Assembly (NCBI GenBank): GCA_027533395.1
Contig: JAPZUF010000009.1
Coordinates: 124,001 to 188,000 of the forward strand
Length of the DNA stretch: 64,000 nt
Origin: Cyclobacteriaceae bacterium
GTDB taxonomy: Bacteria; Bacteroidota; Bacteroidia; Cytophagales; Cyclobacteriaceae
Reading direction: 5' to 3'
Of the stretch, positions 59,819-64,000 are shown piece by piece. Position numbers and translations under genes: made by a program. The notes under the pieces were generated by a model. That model saw only the letters and a program-made list of their open reading frames with translations. It was not told the DNA's origin and made no database searches. The first letter of the stretch is position 1. Every line of letters begins with the position of its first letter.

Positions 59819-60253
59819 ATGTCTCCCGAAAAATTATTCTCAATTTGTAATAGTCTAGCTCCATTTGGATGGTTGTTAATGTGGTTCGCTCCAACATGGA
59901 AGGGCACACAATGGCTGGTTCGTTATTTAATCATTCCACTATTATTCAGTTTTGTTTACATTGGTCTAATTATCAGCGCTGGCTCATTGTCTTTCTCCGA
60001 CTTCGGAACGTTAGCGGGCATTAAAAAACTATTCAGCAACGATTACCTATTGGTTGCAGGTTGGGTACATTACCTCGCTTTCGATTTGTTTGTAGGTTCC
60101 TGGATTTTATTAAAAGGCCAAGAAGCTAAAATTCCTCATCTTTATTTAATCGTTTGTACATTTTTCACTTTTATGCTGGGACCAATCGGCTTGCTCTTAT
60201 TTCACATCGTGAGATACTTCCACACCAAAAAATTACAACATGAGAATTTCTAA
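59819..60253 (+). CDS. ABA4-like (DUF4281) family membrane protein
   Basis: This 144-residue protein has four TM helices and the family pattern SLAPFGWLLMWFAPTW, IIPLLFSFVYIGLI, and WVHYLAFDLFVGSWILLKG. ABA4 in plants is needed for neoxanthin formation; bacterial relatives have no proven role. The frame overlaps the next gene by 14 bases, so they are translationally linked. Confidence 0.85.
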   Translation: MSPEKLFSICNSLAPFGWLLMWFAPTWKGTQWLVRYLIIPLLFSFVYIGLIISAGSLSFSDFGTLAGIKKLFSNDYLLVAGWVHYLAFDLFVGSWILLKGQEAKIPHLYLIVCTFFTFMLGPIGLLLFHIVRYFHTKKLQHENF

Positions 60254-61022
60254 TTTTCTTACTTCACTCCAAAAACGAAATCCATTGTTGTTTACTTTTG
60301 GTGTCTTACACTTTGGTTTATTCGTCATCTGTCTTTTGCTTTTCTTTTATGACGATACTTTGGTTTCCGGCATCAATGCCTGGATCAAACCCATGAAGTT
60401 TTCATTAAGCATTACGATTTATCTTTTCACATTCGCTTGGTGTTTGCATTATTTAACATCAGAAAGAAGTAAAAAAATTATTTCATGGGTGGTGCTTATT
60501 ACTATGTTAGTAGAAATCATCATCATTGTTTTTCAAGCAGCCCGAGGAGAACGTTCTCATTTTAATATCACCACGATACCGAATGCCATTCTGTTTTCAA
60601 CCATGGGTATCTTTATCGGCATCAACACTGTAATCAATCTATATACATTGTTTTTATTTTTGATGCCCGAAAAAACTACCTTGAAAGGCAACAATCTTGT
60701 TGCGTGGCAGTTTGCATTATTATTTTTCTGTTTAGGTAGTATTTCAGGTGGCATCATGAGTTCTCAACTAGCACATAGTGTTGGGTCAGCAGATGGTGGA
60801 GCTGGCTTACTATTCTTGAATTGGAATACTTTAGCAGGTGATGTTCGGGTTCCTCACTTCTTTACCTTACATGGTTTACAGCTTATTCCATTGGTTCAAT
60901 ACTATATCATTAAGGATAAACCTAAAGCCATCTTGTTTACCTTTGCTTTACTGTATCTCGCGTTTTGCGTGTATTTGCATCAACAAGCTTTATCCGGTAT
61001 ACCTTTTATAAAAATTAATTGA
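60240..61022 (+). CDS. Polytopic membrane protein of unknown function
   Basis: The 260-residue protein has about seven TM helices with few charged loops. Conserved-looking segments are WIKPMKFSLSITIYLFTFAWCLHYL, VFQAARGERSHFN (a charged, aromatic loop), and DVRVPHFFTLHGLQLIPLVQYYI. His in 'PHFFTLHGLQ' and the Arg/Asp around it could bind a cofactor or metal. It overlaps the ABA4-like gene and may act with it. I do not recognise its family. Confidence 0.65.
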   Translation: MRISNFLTSLQKRNPLLFTFGVLHFGLFVICLLLFFYDDTLVSGINAWIKPMKFSLSITIYLFTFAWCLHYLTSERSKKIISWVVLITMLVEIIIIVFQAARGERSHFNITTIPNAILFSTMGIFIGINTVINLYTLFLFLMPEKTTLKGNNLVAWQFALLFFCLGSISGGIMSSQLAHSVGSADGGAGLLFLNWNTLAGDVRVPHFFTLHGLQLIPLVQYYIIKDKPKAILFTFALLYLAFCVYLHQQALSGIPFIKIN

Positions 61023-61081
61023 AAATTGTCAGCCAAGATTTGGCTTATTCGTACATCTTGTCTTTCTTCGCACCAAGAAAT

Positions 61082-61159
61082 ATGAAAAACACACAAAACA
61101 TCCACCGTCACCATCATCATTCAGGCAATGATTGTCGTGGCATGGCTATGTTTTGTTAA
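61082..61159 (+). CDS. hisL: Histidine-operon leader peptide (25 residues, 5 His codons)
   Basis: The ATG at 61082 opens a 25-codon frame ending in TAA at 61157-61159. Codons 8-13 read His-Arg-His-His-His-His, a density expected only by selection. It lies between the 7-TM gene and hisG and is followed at 61182-61212 by a terminator hairpin. Slow translation of the His codons when His-tRNA is scarce would position the ribosome over the 5' half and free the segment CGTGGCA (61136-61142). That segment can pair with the 5' arm of the terminator. This is the classical his attenuator design. Confidence 0.85.
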   Translation: MKNTQNIHRHHHHSGNDCRGMAMFC

Positions 61160-61193
61160 TTGATAGCAAAAGGAAACTAGGAGGCTTGTCACG
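61136..61193 (+). promoter_or_regulatory. Proposed antiterminator pairing of the his attenuator
   Basis: CGTGGCA (61136-61142, within the leader peptide frame) can pair with TGTCACG (61187-61193). There is one G-U pair, and an extension through GGCT (61144-61147) with AGGCT (61182-61186) works with one bulged base. The target is the 5' arm of the downstream terminator, so the two structures exclude each other. Confidence 0.6.
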
Positions 61194-61212
61194 TTGTGGC
61201 AAGCCTTTTTTA
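61182..61212 (+). terminator. his attenuator terminator
   Basis: AGGCTTGTCAC (61182-61192) pairs with GTGGCAAGCCT (61196-61206) in an 11-bp stem with one G-U pair and a 3-base loop, followed by TTTTT and another T-run. It lies 22 bases after the leader peptide stop and about 15 bases before hisG. Confidence 0.9.
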
Positions 61213-61226
61213 TTTTTAAAAGTATG

Positions 61227-62087
61227 ATGGAAAATGTATTAAGAATAGCGATTCAAAAATCAGGAAGATTACAAGAAGGTTCGCTGCAATTGTTAAAAGA
61301 AAGCGGGCTTTCCATCTCAAATGGAAAGGACCAACTGAAGGCCCAGGTAAGAAATTTCCCTGTAGAAATTCTTTTTCTACGCGATGATGATATTCCTCAA
61401 TATGTAGAAGATAAAGTAGCCGATGTGGGCATTGTAGGTGAAAATGTGTTCATAGAAAAAGAAAAGAAGAATACACTCATCAAACGATTGGATTTTGCGA
61501 AGTGCCGTTTATGTTTGGCTATTCCCCGAAGCGAAGCTTACACGGGTTTACAGTGGTTTCAGAATAAAAACATAGCTACTTCCTACCCTACTATCGTTTC
61601 TCAATTTTTGAAAAAAAATAACATCGAAGCAGGCATACACGAAATCAGCGGTTCCGTTGAAATTGCTCCGGGTATAGGTTTAGCAGATGGCATTTGCGAT
61701 ATCGTTAGCACAGGCTCAACACTTTTATCCAATGGATTAAAGGAGGTAGAAACCGTTTTGTATTCGGAAGCGGTAATGATTGCCACACCGGAGCTGGTAC
61801 AAGAAAAGCAAAACATTCTTAACAAATTGTTGTTCCGCATTGAAGCAGTGCAAAAAGCAAAGAACAACAAATATATTTTATTGAATTGCCCGAACGATGC
61901 CATCGAAAAAATTACAACGGTTATTCCGGGCATGAATAGTCCAACCATTTTACCCTTAAAAAAAGAAGGCTGGTCATCCTTACACTCAGTTGTTGATGAA
62001 AATGATTTCTGGCAAAAAATTGATCAGCTAAAAAGTTTTGGTGCGCAAGGCATCTTGGTAATACCTATTGAAAAAATGATTAAATAA
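61227..62087 (+). CDS. hisG: ATP phosphoribosyltransferase (long form)
   Basis: HisG condenses ATP and PRPP, the first step of histidine synthesis, and is the point of feedback control. The 286-residue protein begins at ATG 61227 (MENVLRIAIQKSGRLQEGS); an ATG one codon upstream is also possible. It has the N-terminal binding-protein-like fold, VADVGIVGENV, SGSVEIAPGIGLADGICDIVSTGSTL and a C-terminal regulatory domain (about 215-286; FRIEAVQKAKNNKYILLNCPND), which makes this the long, hexameric, HisZ-independent type. Confidence 0.97.
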   Translation: MENVLRIAIQKSGRLQEGSLQLLKESGLSISNGKDQLKAQVRNFPVEILFLRDDDIPQYVEDKVADVGIVGENVFIEKEKKNTLIKRLDFAKCRLCLAIPRSEAYTGLQWFQNKNIATSYPTIVSQFLKKNNIEAGIHEISGSVEIAPGIGLADGICDIVSTGSTLLSNGLKEVETVLYSEAVMIATPELVQEKQNILNKLLFRIEAVQKAKNNKYILLNCPNDAIEKITTVIPGMNSPTILPLKKEGWSSLHSVVDENDFWQKIDQLKSFGAQGILVIPIEKMIK

Positions 62088-62098
62088 CGCTTAATTAT

Positions 62099-63388
62099 AT
62101 GCAGATATTTATTAATCCAGATCAACACCAGTGGAGTAAGCTTGCAACACGTCCGCAACTATCTCTTGAATTTTTAGAAAGTGCAACACGCAACATTTTA
62201 GCGAGGGTGCAACAATCTGGCGATGCAGCGTTGTTCGCATTAACCGAACAGCACGATAAAGCTAAGTTACAATCCTTAGTTGTGAGTGAAGAAGAAATTC
62301 AAACTGCCAACAGCAGATTGAGTGCAGACCTCAAGCTAGCTATCTTACAAGCCAAAGCGAATATCGAAAAATTTCACGCAGCACAATCACGAAACGAACA
62401 TATAATTGAAACGATGCCCGGTGTTAAGTGTTGGCGCAAGGCCGTTCCAATTTCTAAAGTTGGTATTTATATTCCGGGTGGAACCGCTCCGTTGTTTTCT
62501 ACTGTCTTAATGCTAGCTGTTCCCGCCTCATTAGCTGGTTGCAAAGAAATTATTTTATGCTCACCACCTGATAGCAGCGGACAGATTCATGATGCTATCT
62601 TATTCGCTGCATCCGTTACAGGAGTTACCAAAATTATAAAAGCAGGAGGTGCGCAAGCGATAGCTGCCTTAGCGTATGGTACTGAATCTGTTCCTAAAGT
62701 GCATAAAATTTTCGGACCGGGCAATCAGTATGTAACCAAAGCCAAACAATTGGTTAATCAAGAAGGAACGGCCATCGATATGCCTGCAGGACCATCAGAA
62801 GTTTTAGTATTGGTTGATGAAAGTGCTGACCCTACTTTTGTTGCGGCCGACTTACTTGCACAAGCAGAACATGGCGTGGATAGCCAAGTAATGTTAGTAA
62901 CAACCTCAAGAGAAATTATTAATCAGGTAGAAAAAGAAATTGATAAACAACTAAAAGCCTTACCAAGAAAAGAGTTAGCTCAACAAGCTTTGCAGAATAG
63001 CAGAGTTTTGTATTTCGCAGCACAAGAAACTGCGTTAGACTTTGTTAACTTCTATTCACCGGAACATTTAATCATCAATACAAAAAATGAAAACGAAGTT
63101 GTAGAGAAAATAACAGATGCAGGATCTGTTTTCATTGGTGCTTATACCCCGGAATCAGCTGGTGATTATGCTTCCGGAACGAATCATACTTTGCCTACCA
63201 ATGGCTATGCAAAAGCATATGCCGGAGTTTCATTAGATAGTTTTGTGAAAAACATTACGTATCAGCAAATCAGTGAAGAAGGTATTCAACATATCGGACC
63301 GATAGTAACAACCATGGCAGAAGCAGAATTACTAAAAGCACATGCCGAAGCCATCACCATTCGTTTACAAAAATTAAAGTCAAAATGA
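62099..63388 (+). CDS. hisD: Histidinol dehydrogenase
   Basis: HisD oxidises histidinol to histidine in two NAD-dependent steps and needs zinc. The 429-residue protein has VGIYIPGGTAPLFSTVLMLAVPA, AGGAQAIAALAYGTESVPKVHKIFGPGNQYVTKAKQLV, MPAGPSEVLVLVDESADP and DLLAQAEHGVDSQVMLVTTS. It also has the zinc-site and catalytic region FYSPEHLIINTK and GDYASGTNHTLPTNGYAKAYAGVSLDSF. It follows hisG by 11 bases and overlaps hisC by four. Confidence 0.98.
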   Translation: MQIFINPDQHQWSKLATRPQLSLEFLESATRNILARVQQSGDAALFALTEQHDKAKLQSLVVSEEEIQTANSRLSADLKLAILQAKANIEKFHAAQSRNEHIIETMPGVKCWRKAVPISKVGIYIPGGTAPLFSTVLMLAVPASLAGCKEIILCSPPDSSGQIHDAILFAASVTGVTKIIKAGGAQAIAALAYGTESVPKVHKIFGPGNQYVTKAKQLVNQEGTAIDMPAGPSEVLVLVDESADPTFVAADLLAQAEHGVDSQVMLVTTSREIINQVEKEIDKQLKALPRKELAQQALQNSRVLYFAAQETALDFVNFYSPEHLIINTKNENEVVEKITDAGSVFIGAYTPESAGDYASGTNHTLPTNGYAKAYAGVSLDSFVKNITYQQISEEGIQHIGPIVTTMAEAELLKAHAEAITIRLQKLKSK

Positions 63389-64000
63389 GTTTCTCGCTAG
63401 ACACAATCATTCGCAACAATATTAAACAGATGAAGCCTTACTCCTCTGCACGCGATGAATTTAAAGGAGAAGCCGATGTTTATTTAGATGCGAACGAAAA
63501 CCCATTTGAGAATGGTTACAATCGTTATCCTGACCCCTTACAAATCAAAGTAAAGGAGCGACTTGCTGCAATAAAAAATACTAAGGTTGAAAACATTATT
63601 CTTGGAAATGGTAGCGATGAGATAATCGATTTACTCATTAGAGCTTGTTGTGAACCCGGCAAAGATGCCATTCTTTTAGCTGAACCCACTTATGGCATGT
63701 ATGGTGTTTGTGCACAAGTGAATAACGTGGCTGTCAAGAAGATATCTCTTACTAAAGAATTCCAACTCGATTGGAATGCTATTCTCCAAGTTGATTTTTC
63801 AACTATAAAGATCACTTTCATTTGTTCGCCCAACAATCCGAGTGGGAATTTATTTAAAAAAGAAGATGTCATTTCATTGATTAAACAAAGTAAAGGAATT
63901 GTAGTAGTTGATGAAGCATATATTGATTTTGCAAACGATGAAGGATTTCTTCCCATGCTCAATCAATTTCCTAACCTTGTGGTGATGCAAACTTTTTCTA
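63385..64000 (+). CDS. hisC: Histidinol-phosphate aminotransferase, N-terminal part (cut by window end)
   Basis: The frame opens with an ATG overlapping the hisD stop (ATGA) and is open to the last base, giving about 205 residues. Family motifs seen are LDANENPFENGYNRYPDPLQIKVKERLA, LGNGSDEIIDLLIRACCEPGKDAILLAEPTYGMYGVCAQ, CSPNNPSGN and VVVDEAYIDFA (Asp as PLP partner). The PLP lysine would follow QTFS just past the window. HisC transfers the amino group of glutamate to imidazole-acetol phosphate. Confidence 0.95.
   Translation, partial: MSFSLDTIIRNNIKQMKPYSSARDEFKGEADVYLDANENPFENGYNRYPDPLQIKVKERLAAIKNTKVENIILGNGSDEIIDLLIRACCEPGKDAILLAEPTYGMYGVCAQVNNVAVKKISLTKEFQLDWNAILQVDFSTIKITFICSPNNPSGNLFKKEDVISLIKQSKGIVVVDEAYIDFANDEGFLPMLNQFPNLVVMQTFS

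Follow-up and report, generated by a model that had tools for sequence, protein, structure and literature searches.

The window, as we call the whole 64,000-nucleotide stretch of Cyclobacteriaceae DNA that was analyzed, ends within a histidine biosynthesis operon. Its first gene, hisG, is preceded by a short frame rich in His codons and by a hairpin with a U-rich tail, and the region comprises the following features:

61039–61070 (+), possible leader promoter: −33 TTTG at 61039–61042, 20 bases, −7 box TTTCTTCG at 61063–61070
61082–61159 (+), leader reading frame, read from the sequence: 25 codons plus TAA, peptide MKNTQNIHRHHHHSGNDCRGMAMFC
61094–61101 (+), segment 1, CAAAACAU: pairs with 61148–61155 as the outer protector stem enclosing the His codons (from the fold and the alignment of 15 leaders)
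61103–61120 (+), regulatory codons His-Arg-His-His-His-His: expected stall site at low charged His-tRNA
61136–61155 (+), segment 2: 61136–61142 pairs with 61187–61193 (antiterminator), 61148–61155 with segment 1 (protector)
61179–61217 (+), intrinsic terminator: stem-loop of 14 pairs at 61179–61209, U-rich tail at 61206–61217, about −19 kcal/mol
61182–61193 (+), segment 3, the 5′ arm of the terminator: common to terminator and antiterminator
61227–62087 (+), hisG, ATP phosphoribosyltransferase, long form (TIGR00070, 187.7 bits; TIGR03455, 101.5 bits)
62099–63388 (+), hisD, histidinol dehydrogenase (TIGR00069, 522.8 bits)
63385–64000 (+), hisC, continuing past the window end

A second in-frame ATG of hisG lies at 61224. 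Beyond the window, hisC is followed in one run by hisB, hisH, hisA, hisF and hisIE, so that the operon reads hisGDCBHAF(IE). The frame directly upstream of the leader (60240–61022) scored below every Pfam and NCBIfam cut-off, and an ABA4-like gene (PF14108, 117.8 bits) is found at 59819–60253. The six nearest titled records in the HisG search encode proteins with 78–81% identity to the HisG of the window and are titled Cyclobacteriaceae (three), Flammeovirgaceae (one) and Bacteroidetes (two).

An earlier sequence-only reading had described a leader of 25 codons with five His in six codons, and this proved exact. The ATG is at 61082 and the TAA at 61157–61159; the His codons occupy 61103–61105 and 61109–61120, with a single Arg codon between them. 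A short His-rich leader frame upstream of the his operon is one of the features expected of a ribosome-mediated his attenuator. No Shine-Dalgarno-like sequence precedes the frame. A search of the same genome for four His codons gave 72 matches, the window leader included, as compared with 24 for a control pattern; these are pattern matches alone. The 25-residue peptide had no match in Pfam at E ≤ 1, and neither the window nor 19 related loci matched any Rfam family at the gathering score. At E ≤ 10, Rfam gave nine weak matches within 61000–61300, which we judged to be unrelated chance matches; His_leader was absent among them. Thus, the element matches neither of the curated enteric models named His_leader in Rfam and Pfam. 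The T-box riboswitch of Rfam also gave no match upstream of hisG at either threshold, and a T-box was rejected.

The same reading had predicted a strong terminator hairpin after the leader, a leader segment able to pair with its 5′ arm, and mutual exclusion of the two structures. All three are present. A terminator scan of 60900–61300 returned two sites (shuffle mean 0.3): the U-tailed 14-pair stem-loop at 61179–61209, placed between the leader and the first gene as in an attenuator, and a weak site of 6 pairs at 61136–61150. The antiterminator, formed by 61136–61142 with 61187–61193, has seven pairs, one of them G-U, and bases 61187–61192 are used by both helices. The fold of 61060–61226 reached −42.6 kcal/mol (z −2.90; 1 of 200 shuffles equally good) and contained both the terminator and the protector stem around the His codons.

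We then folded the RNA in its alternative states, which gave the expected switch. Without a ribosome, the RNA from its guessed start to the U-tract formed protector and terminator (−39.4 kcal/mol; the protector alone, −20.2 kcal/mol). When the RNA was masked up to 61135, as by a stalled ribosome, and synthesized as far as 61194, the antiterminator formed at −16.3 kcal/mol with pair probabilities of 0.92–1.0; masking it up to 61138 left four antiterminator pairs and −10.7 kcal/mol. With the ribosome at the stop codon, the terminator was the only structure (−19.2 kcal/mol). At equilibrium, with segment 1 hidden and the whole terminator made, the terminator prevailed (−27.8 kcal/mol, antiterminator probability 0), and the model therefore needs co-transcriptional timing, the assumption being that the antiterminator forms first. 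With the last His codon ending at 61120, a ribosome stalled there would have its leading edge about 12 bases ahead, and segment 2 begins just beyond it, at 61136. The predicted antiterminator, although its covariation is weak, would thus exclude the terminator once a ribosome occupies the regulatory codons and leaves segment 2 free, and the protector would restore termination without translation.

To assess conservation, we aligned a close set of 15 leaders (L001, which is the window, L002–L007, L031, L032, L202–L204 and L206–L208), from which L205 was omitted as a copy of L007. All 15 have a run of 4–5 His and a terminator, the energies of the latter ranging from −17.5 to −23.7 kcal/mol. In the terminator helix, 93.3% of 163 cells were paired, and 4 of 11 pairs showed two-sided change, a value as high in 4 of 500 shuffles. 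Of the two alternative helices, the antiterminator was paired in 85.7% of 105 cells (as high in 1 of 500 shuffles; 25.5–57.1% if slid) and the protector in 85.8% of 120 cells (10 of 500; 35–52.5% if slid). Covariation was weak for the antiterminator, with two-sided change in 3 of 7 pairs (39 of 500 shuffles) and a covariation score reached in 94 of 500; for the protector, the score was reached in 28 of 500 and the number of pairs with two-sided change in 141 of 500. When duplex energies were compared with 200 dinucleotide shuffles per leader, pairing of segments 2 and 3 (antiterminator) stood at or below 5% of shuffles in 13 of the 15 close leaders, the window included. L208, whose HisG is 71% identical to that of the window, is clearly without an antiterminator (0.77 of shuffles as good), and L206 is marginal (0.06). 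Pairing of segments 1 and 2 (protector) stood at or below 5% in 11 of the 15, a set that again includes the window; the values above 5% were 0.055 for the window itself, 0.305 for L005, 0.06 for L203 and 0.11 for L206. Loss of the His codons or of the pairing in relatives had been named beforehand as grounds for giving up the attenuator; both are kept, and what fell short of that earlier expectation was the covariation of the antiterminator.

A His run kept in all 15 close leaders could also be read as part of a small functional protein, metal-binding and produced together with the operon, with the hairpin as a by-product. The peptides listed, however, vary widely across the phylum outside the His run. 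In L202, moreover, the frame stops early and its second half is gone, yet segment 2 persists in the RNA; the alternative helices are also kept in relatives. We consider a small protein extremely unlikely as the function of the frame, and prefer an attenuator.

We next turned to the phylum. The main set comprised 201 hisG upstream regions, six of them fetched twice (195 distinct), drawn from all 49 genomes matching one search and part of the genomes matching two more; with 80 further hisG loci in a second set, 271 distinct regions were available. All derive from HisG matches of about 1e-71 or stronger, which places short HisG forms outside the sample. Short frames in which 3 or more of 7 codons are His were found in 174 of 201 regions of the main set (shuffles, 3–8; reverse complement, 6) and in 70 of 80 of the second set. 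Counting distinct regions and any of three start codons, the main set had a His frame in 168 of 195, and both sets together in 235 of 271, or 229 without doubtful frames. For frames starting with ATG, the main set gave 158 of 201, as compared with 0–5 in five dinucleotide-shuffle sets and 4 on the reverse complement; at 4 or more His in 7 codons it still gave 130 of 201, as compared with none in shuffles and none on the reverse complement. The runners-up in the same scan of 201 were Leu (52) at 3 in 7, and Leu and Ser (10 each) at 4 in 7. Eight loci with an unconvincing His-rich frame (L066, L069, L087, L099, L101, L152, L156 and L278) are contained in the raw leader counts; they were excluded when the forms were compared (below) and, where present on the tree, scored as lacking a leader. 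No convincing His leader was found at that place for the HisG relatives L066/L101, L069/L087/L278, L239, L241, L247, L252, L253 and L255, whose records are titled Runella, Dyadobacter, Spirosoma and others. Thus, a His leader peptide is predicted before the his operon in most of the Bacteroidota sampled, and the window case is part of a widespread system.

These counts bear on a simpler account, in which the hairpin only terminates transcription of the upstream gene (60240–61022), the His frame is a chance occurrence, and the hisG promoter lies downstream. The hairpin is indeed a strong intrinsic terminator and begins 157 bases past the end of that gene. Such an account nevertheless leaves unexplained why His-rich frames recur at the same place in those 158 regions and why a terminator follows 174 of the 244 His-rich frames. 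In addition, a promoter would hardly fit into the 17 bases between the hairpin and the hisG ATG. We regard it as most improbable.

The hairpins themselves were recovered in the survey. One of −10 kcal/mol or better, followed by a U-run, was found in 127 of the 201 regions on the real strand, in 65 on the reverse complement, in 18 in a stretch 300 bases further up and in 2 after shuffling; that the scan also fires on the reverse complement is probably due to the near-symmetry of such hairpins. In 60 rows, these hairpins end 12 to 224 bases 5′ of the HisG match. This distance is too variable for a hairpin that hides the hisG start, as would be expected if the leader controlled translation of hisG and not termination. 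Translational attenuators of this sort have been reported in other bacteria, according to the available part of one study (PMC9413887), but the hairpin here ends in a U-run, and we think control of translation very unlikely. The pairing on which attenuation would depend is also widespread: in 59% of 165 distinct leaders, some pairing between leader and terminator arm was equalled by no more than 5% of mononucleotide shuffles. For 150 other distinct leaders of the terminator type, tested with dinucleotide shuffles and a set ribosome edge, pairing of segments 2 and 3 stood at or below 5% in 83 (above 5% in the other 67) and pairing of segments 1 and 2 in 76, with 7.5 expected for each. A swap control, in which the arm of one genome was set against the leader of another, was unspecific (a median of 0.2 of foreign leaders paired equally well, and 18% of the 165 stood at or below 5%) because terminator arms resemble one another throughout the phylum; shuffles were used in its place.

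The Bacteroidota promoter pattern is TTTG-N19-TANNTTTG, and the place and spacing of 61039–61070 make it a possible promoter for the leader in the window. Its −7 box fits 4 of the 6 fixed letters of the consensus, and the window failed the combined promoter scan; we guess that the RNA starts at about 61073–61077, 5–9 bases 5′ of the leader ATG. In the survey, the motif T[A/T]NNTTTG lies 3–14 bases 5′ of the start in 106 of 230 distinct leaders, as compared with 20 and 11 at sites 30 and 45 bases further up, and −33 TTTG peaks 18–20 bases away from it. Shine-Dalgarno-like words precede 5 of the 230. The combined score, applied within 30 bases of the start, identified a promoter in 180 of 225 leaders, as compared with 25 at a control site 40 bases up, and the gap from promoter to start codon was 4–20 bases in 161 of the 180. 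Bacteroidota-type promoters are thus often close enough to the leader ATG for a nearly leaderless RNA, the window's own being a weak match. In Flavobacterium psychrophilum, leaderless mRNAs make up 5.5% and the median 5′ UTR is 24, as given in the accessible part of the report (PMC9723704); by this measure, many his leaders would be unusually near the 5′ end.

We conclude that the element in the window is, with high probability, a ribosome-mediated transcription attenuator of hisGDCBHAF(IE). The claim of a his attenuator before hisG, controlled by ribosome stalling, is supported by the folding of the states and by conservation in relatives; computation establishes the frame, the hairpins with their mutual exclusion and retention in relatives, and the operon, and from these the promoter, translation of the leader, stalling, termination and the response to histidine are inferred. 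In the proposed mechanism, RNA polymerase would start a few bases 5′ of the leader ATG, with a ribosome following. When charged His-tRNA is ample, the ribosome would reach the stop codon at 61157 and cover most of segment 2; the terminator at 61179–61209 would then form, and transcription would end in the U-run shortly before hisG. When charged His-tRNA is scarce, the ribosome would stall at 61103–61120, hiding segment 1 and leaving segment 2 free, and 61136–61142 would pair with 61187–61193 before the 3′ arm is made, so that no terminator forms and the operon is read. If the leader is not translated, the protector stem would form, followed by the terminator.

Not all His leaders are followed by a terminator. 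By the hairpin criterion, the 229 accepted distinct leaders divide into 168 with a terminator, 26 without one that end in HHxHHSS-stop, and 35 others without; this criterion misses some terminators. Inspection of L053, L119 and L175, counted among the 35, reveals a U-run preceded by a hairpin, so that at least three of the 61 terminator-free leaders look misfiled. The HHxHHSS-stop leaders are a second form in Cytophagales (L013, L015, L023, L025, L039, L047, L068, L224, L234, L251 and others), after which we found no terminator. In these, CATTCCTC and GAGGAAT can make a small hairpin around the stop codon, and conserved words follow; a promoter was found in 24 of the 26, with a gap of 4–9 bases in all 24. 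The median distance from the last His codon to the stop is 6 codons in the terminator form and 2 in both terminator-free kinds. From leader stop to hisG, the terminator-free leaders have a C content of 0.23–0.24 and a G content of 0.12–0.16, with C over G in 58 of 61, as compared with C 0.16 and G 0.18 and C over G in 56 of 168 in the terminator form (C 0.13 and G 0.16 before the hairpin); upstream of the leaders, C is 0.15–0.18 and G 0.15–0.19. Stretches of at least 30 bases in which G occurs no more than once and C makes up 20% or more are present in 47 of 60 terminator-free leaders, as compared with 32 of 160 of the terminator form. Median fold scores were z −0.36 and 0.32 in the terminator-free kinds, near shuffles, as compared with −3.22 in the terminator form, a contrast that is partly circular because the hairpin defined the forms.

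In E. coli, a ribosome held on the TnaC leader keeps Rho off the RNA. By analogy, the His codons near the stop and the C-rich, G-poor RNA after it suggest TnaC-like, Rho-dependent control in the terminator-free form (61 of 229). The nine sampled loci of family f102 (L185, L186, L188, L191, L192, L194, L197, L199 and L200), from another class of the same phylum, are all terminator-free; the stop codon of their leaders directly follows or lies near His codons, G-poor, C-rich RNA comes next, and this likewise suggests Rho-dependent control. Among 40 sampled loci of the window's own family (f1), 15 have the terminator form, 24 are terminator-free and 1 is without a leader. A quick tree of 160 HisG rows groups the leaders by form, with 3 changes when rows without a leader are set aside, and the four Flavobacterium records on it have the terminator form. 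The starred group that contains the window has 15 rows, each of the terminator form, and is nested within 19 such rows; these adjoin a group of 53, of which 36 are terminator-free, 16 lack a leader and 1 has a terminator (support 84–92, not starred). That the terminator clade of the window stands beside a large terminator-free group would mean that the mode of termination changed while the sensor stayed, in a direction that the tree does not give. We tentatively propose, as one possible and still doubtful scheme, that Bacteroidota his operons use leader frames near the 5′ end as one sensor with two outputs, a terminator, or a terminator-free form in which a ribosome held at terminal His codons would keep Rho off as in TnaC.

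What began as one suspected attenuator becomes a testable rule for the his operons of a phylum. Attenuation needs a ribosome close behind RNA polymerase, and the leaders therefore point indirectly to a coupling of transcription and translation in Bacteroidota. Translation start in this phylum does not rest on Shine-Dalgarno sequences, as stated in the part of the F. psychrophilum report at hand (PMC9723704), and his leaders offer natural frames for the study of starts close to the 5′ end.

Among known systems, the hisL leaders of E. coli and Salmonella resemble the window element in their His run, their shortness, and a terminator and alternative antiterminator directly before hisG. The window element differs from them in having no Rfam or Pfam match at the thresholds used, no Shine-Dalgarno-like word and an Arg codon that breaks the His run; four segments suffice for it, whereas the enteric his leader has more. 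A comparative attenuator study of 2004 by Vitreschak and co-workers reportedly named cases in Bacteroidetes/Chlorobi. Candidate his attenuators of the Bacillus cereus group, some Eubacteriales and Erysipelotrichales, with runs of three to five His codons and a terminator and antiterminator predicted by comparison, are alike by their description in the available part of the study on them, although they belong to another phylum (PMC9413887). The Bacteroid-trp leader RNA (RF01692), a name used in PMC2864571, is a leader-peptide RNA of Bacteroidetes as in the window, but for tryptophan, and the window had no match to it at the gathering score; a minus-strand match of 23.3 bits (cut-off 49) was judged to be chance. 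Leader-like frames are mentioned in B. thetaiotaomicron 5′ UTRs in the accessible sections of another study (PMC7366714). In those of a 2021 study on the his genes of this superphylum, attenuation is mentioned once, for enterobacteria, and the word leader is absent (PMC8305728). The sequence-only reading had called the phylum less described in this respect. Our literature search found no census of Bacteroidota his leaders and no terminator-free form, which agrees with it; yet among the Bacteroidota sampled such leaders are common, and clues for leader-peptide attenuation before amino-acid operons had already been reported for F. psychrophilum. There and in other Flavobacteriaceae, hisG is among the genes with a conserved, structured 5′ element, for which the available part of the report, unlike our analysis, gives no leader sequence or pairing (PMC9723704). 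Compared with these systems, the terminator-free leaders and the promoters very near the leader ATG are what our survey suggests to be newer, and the window element itself most likely represents ribosome-mediated his attenuation, a mechanism of a known kind and a sound case, not an exotic one.
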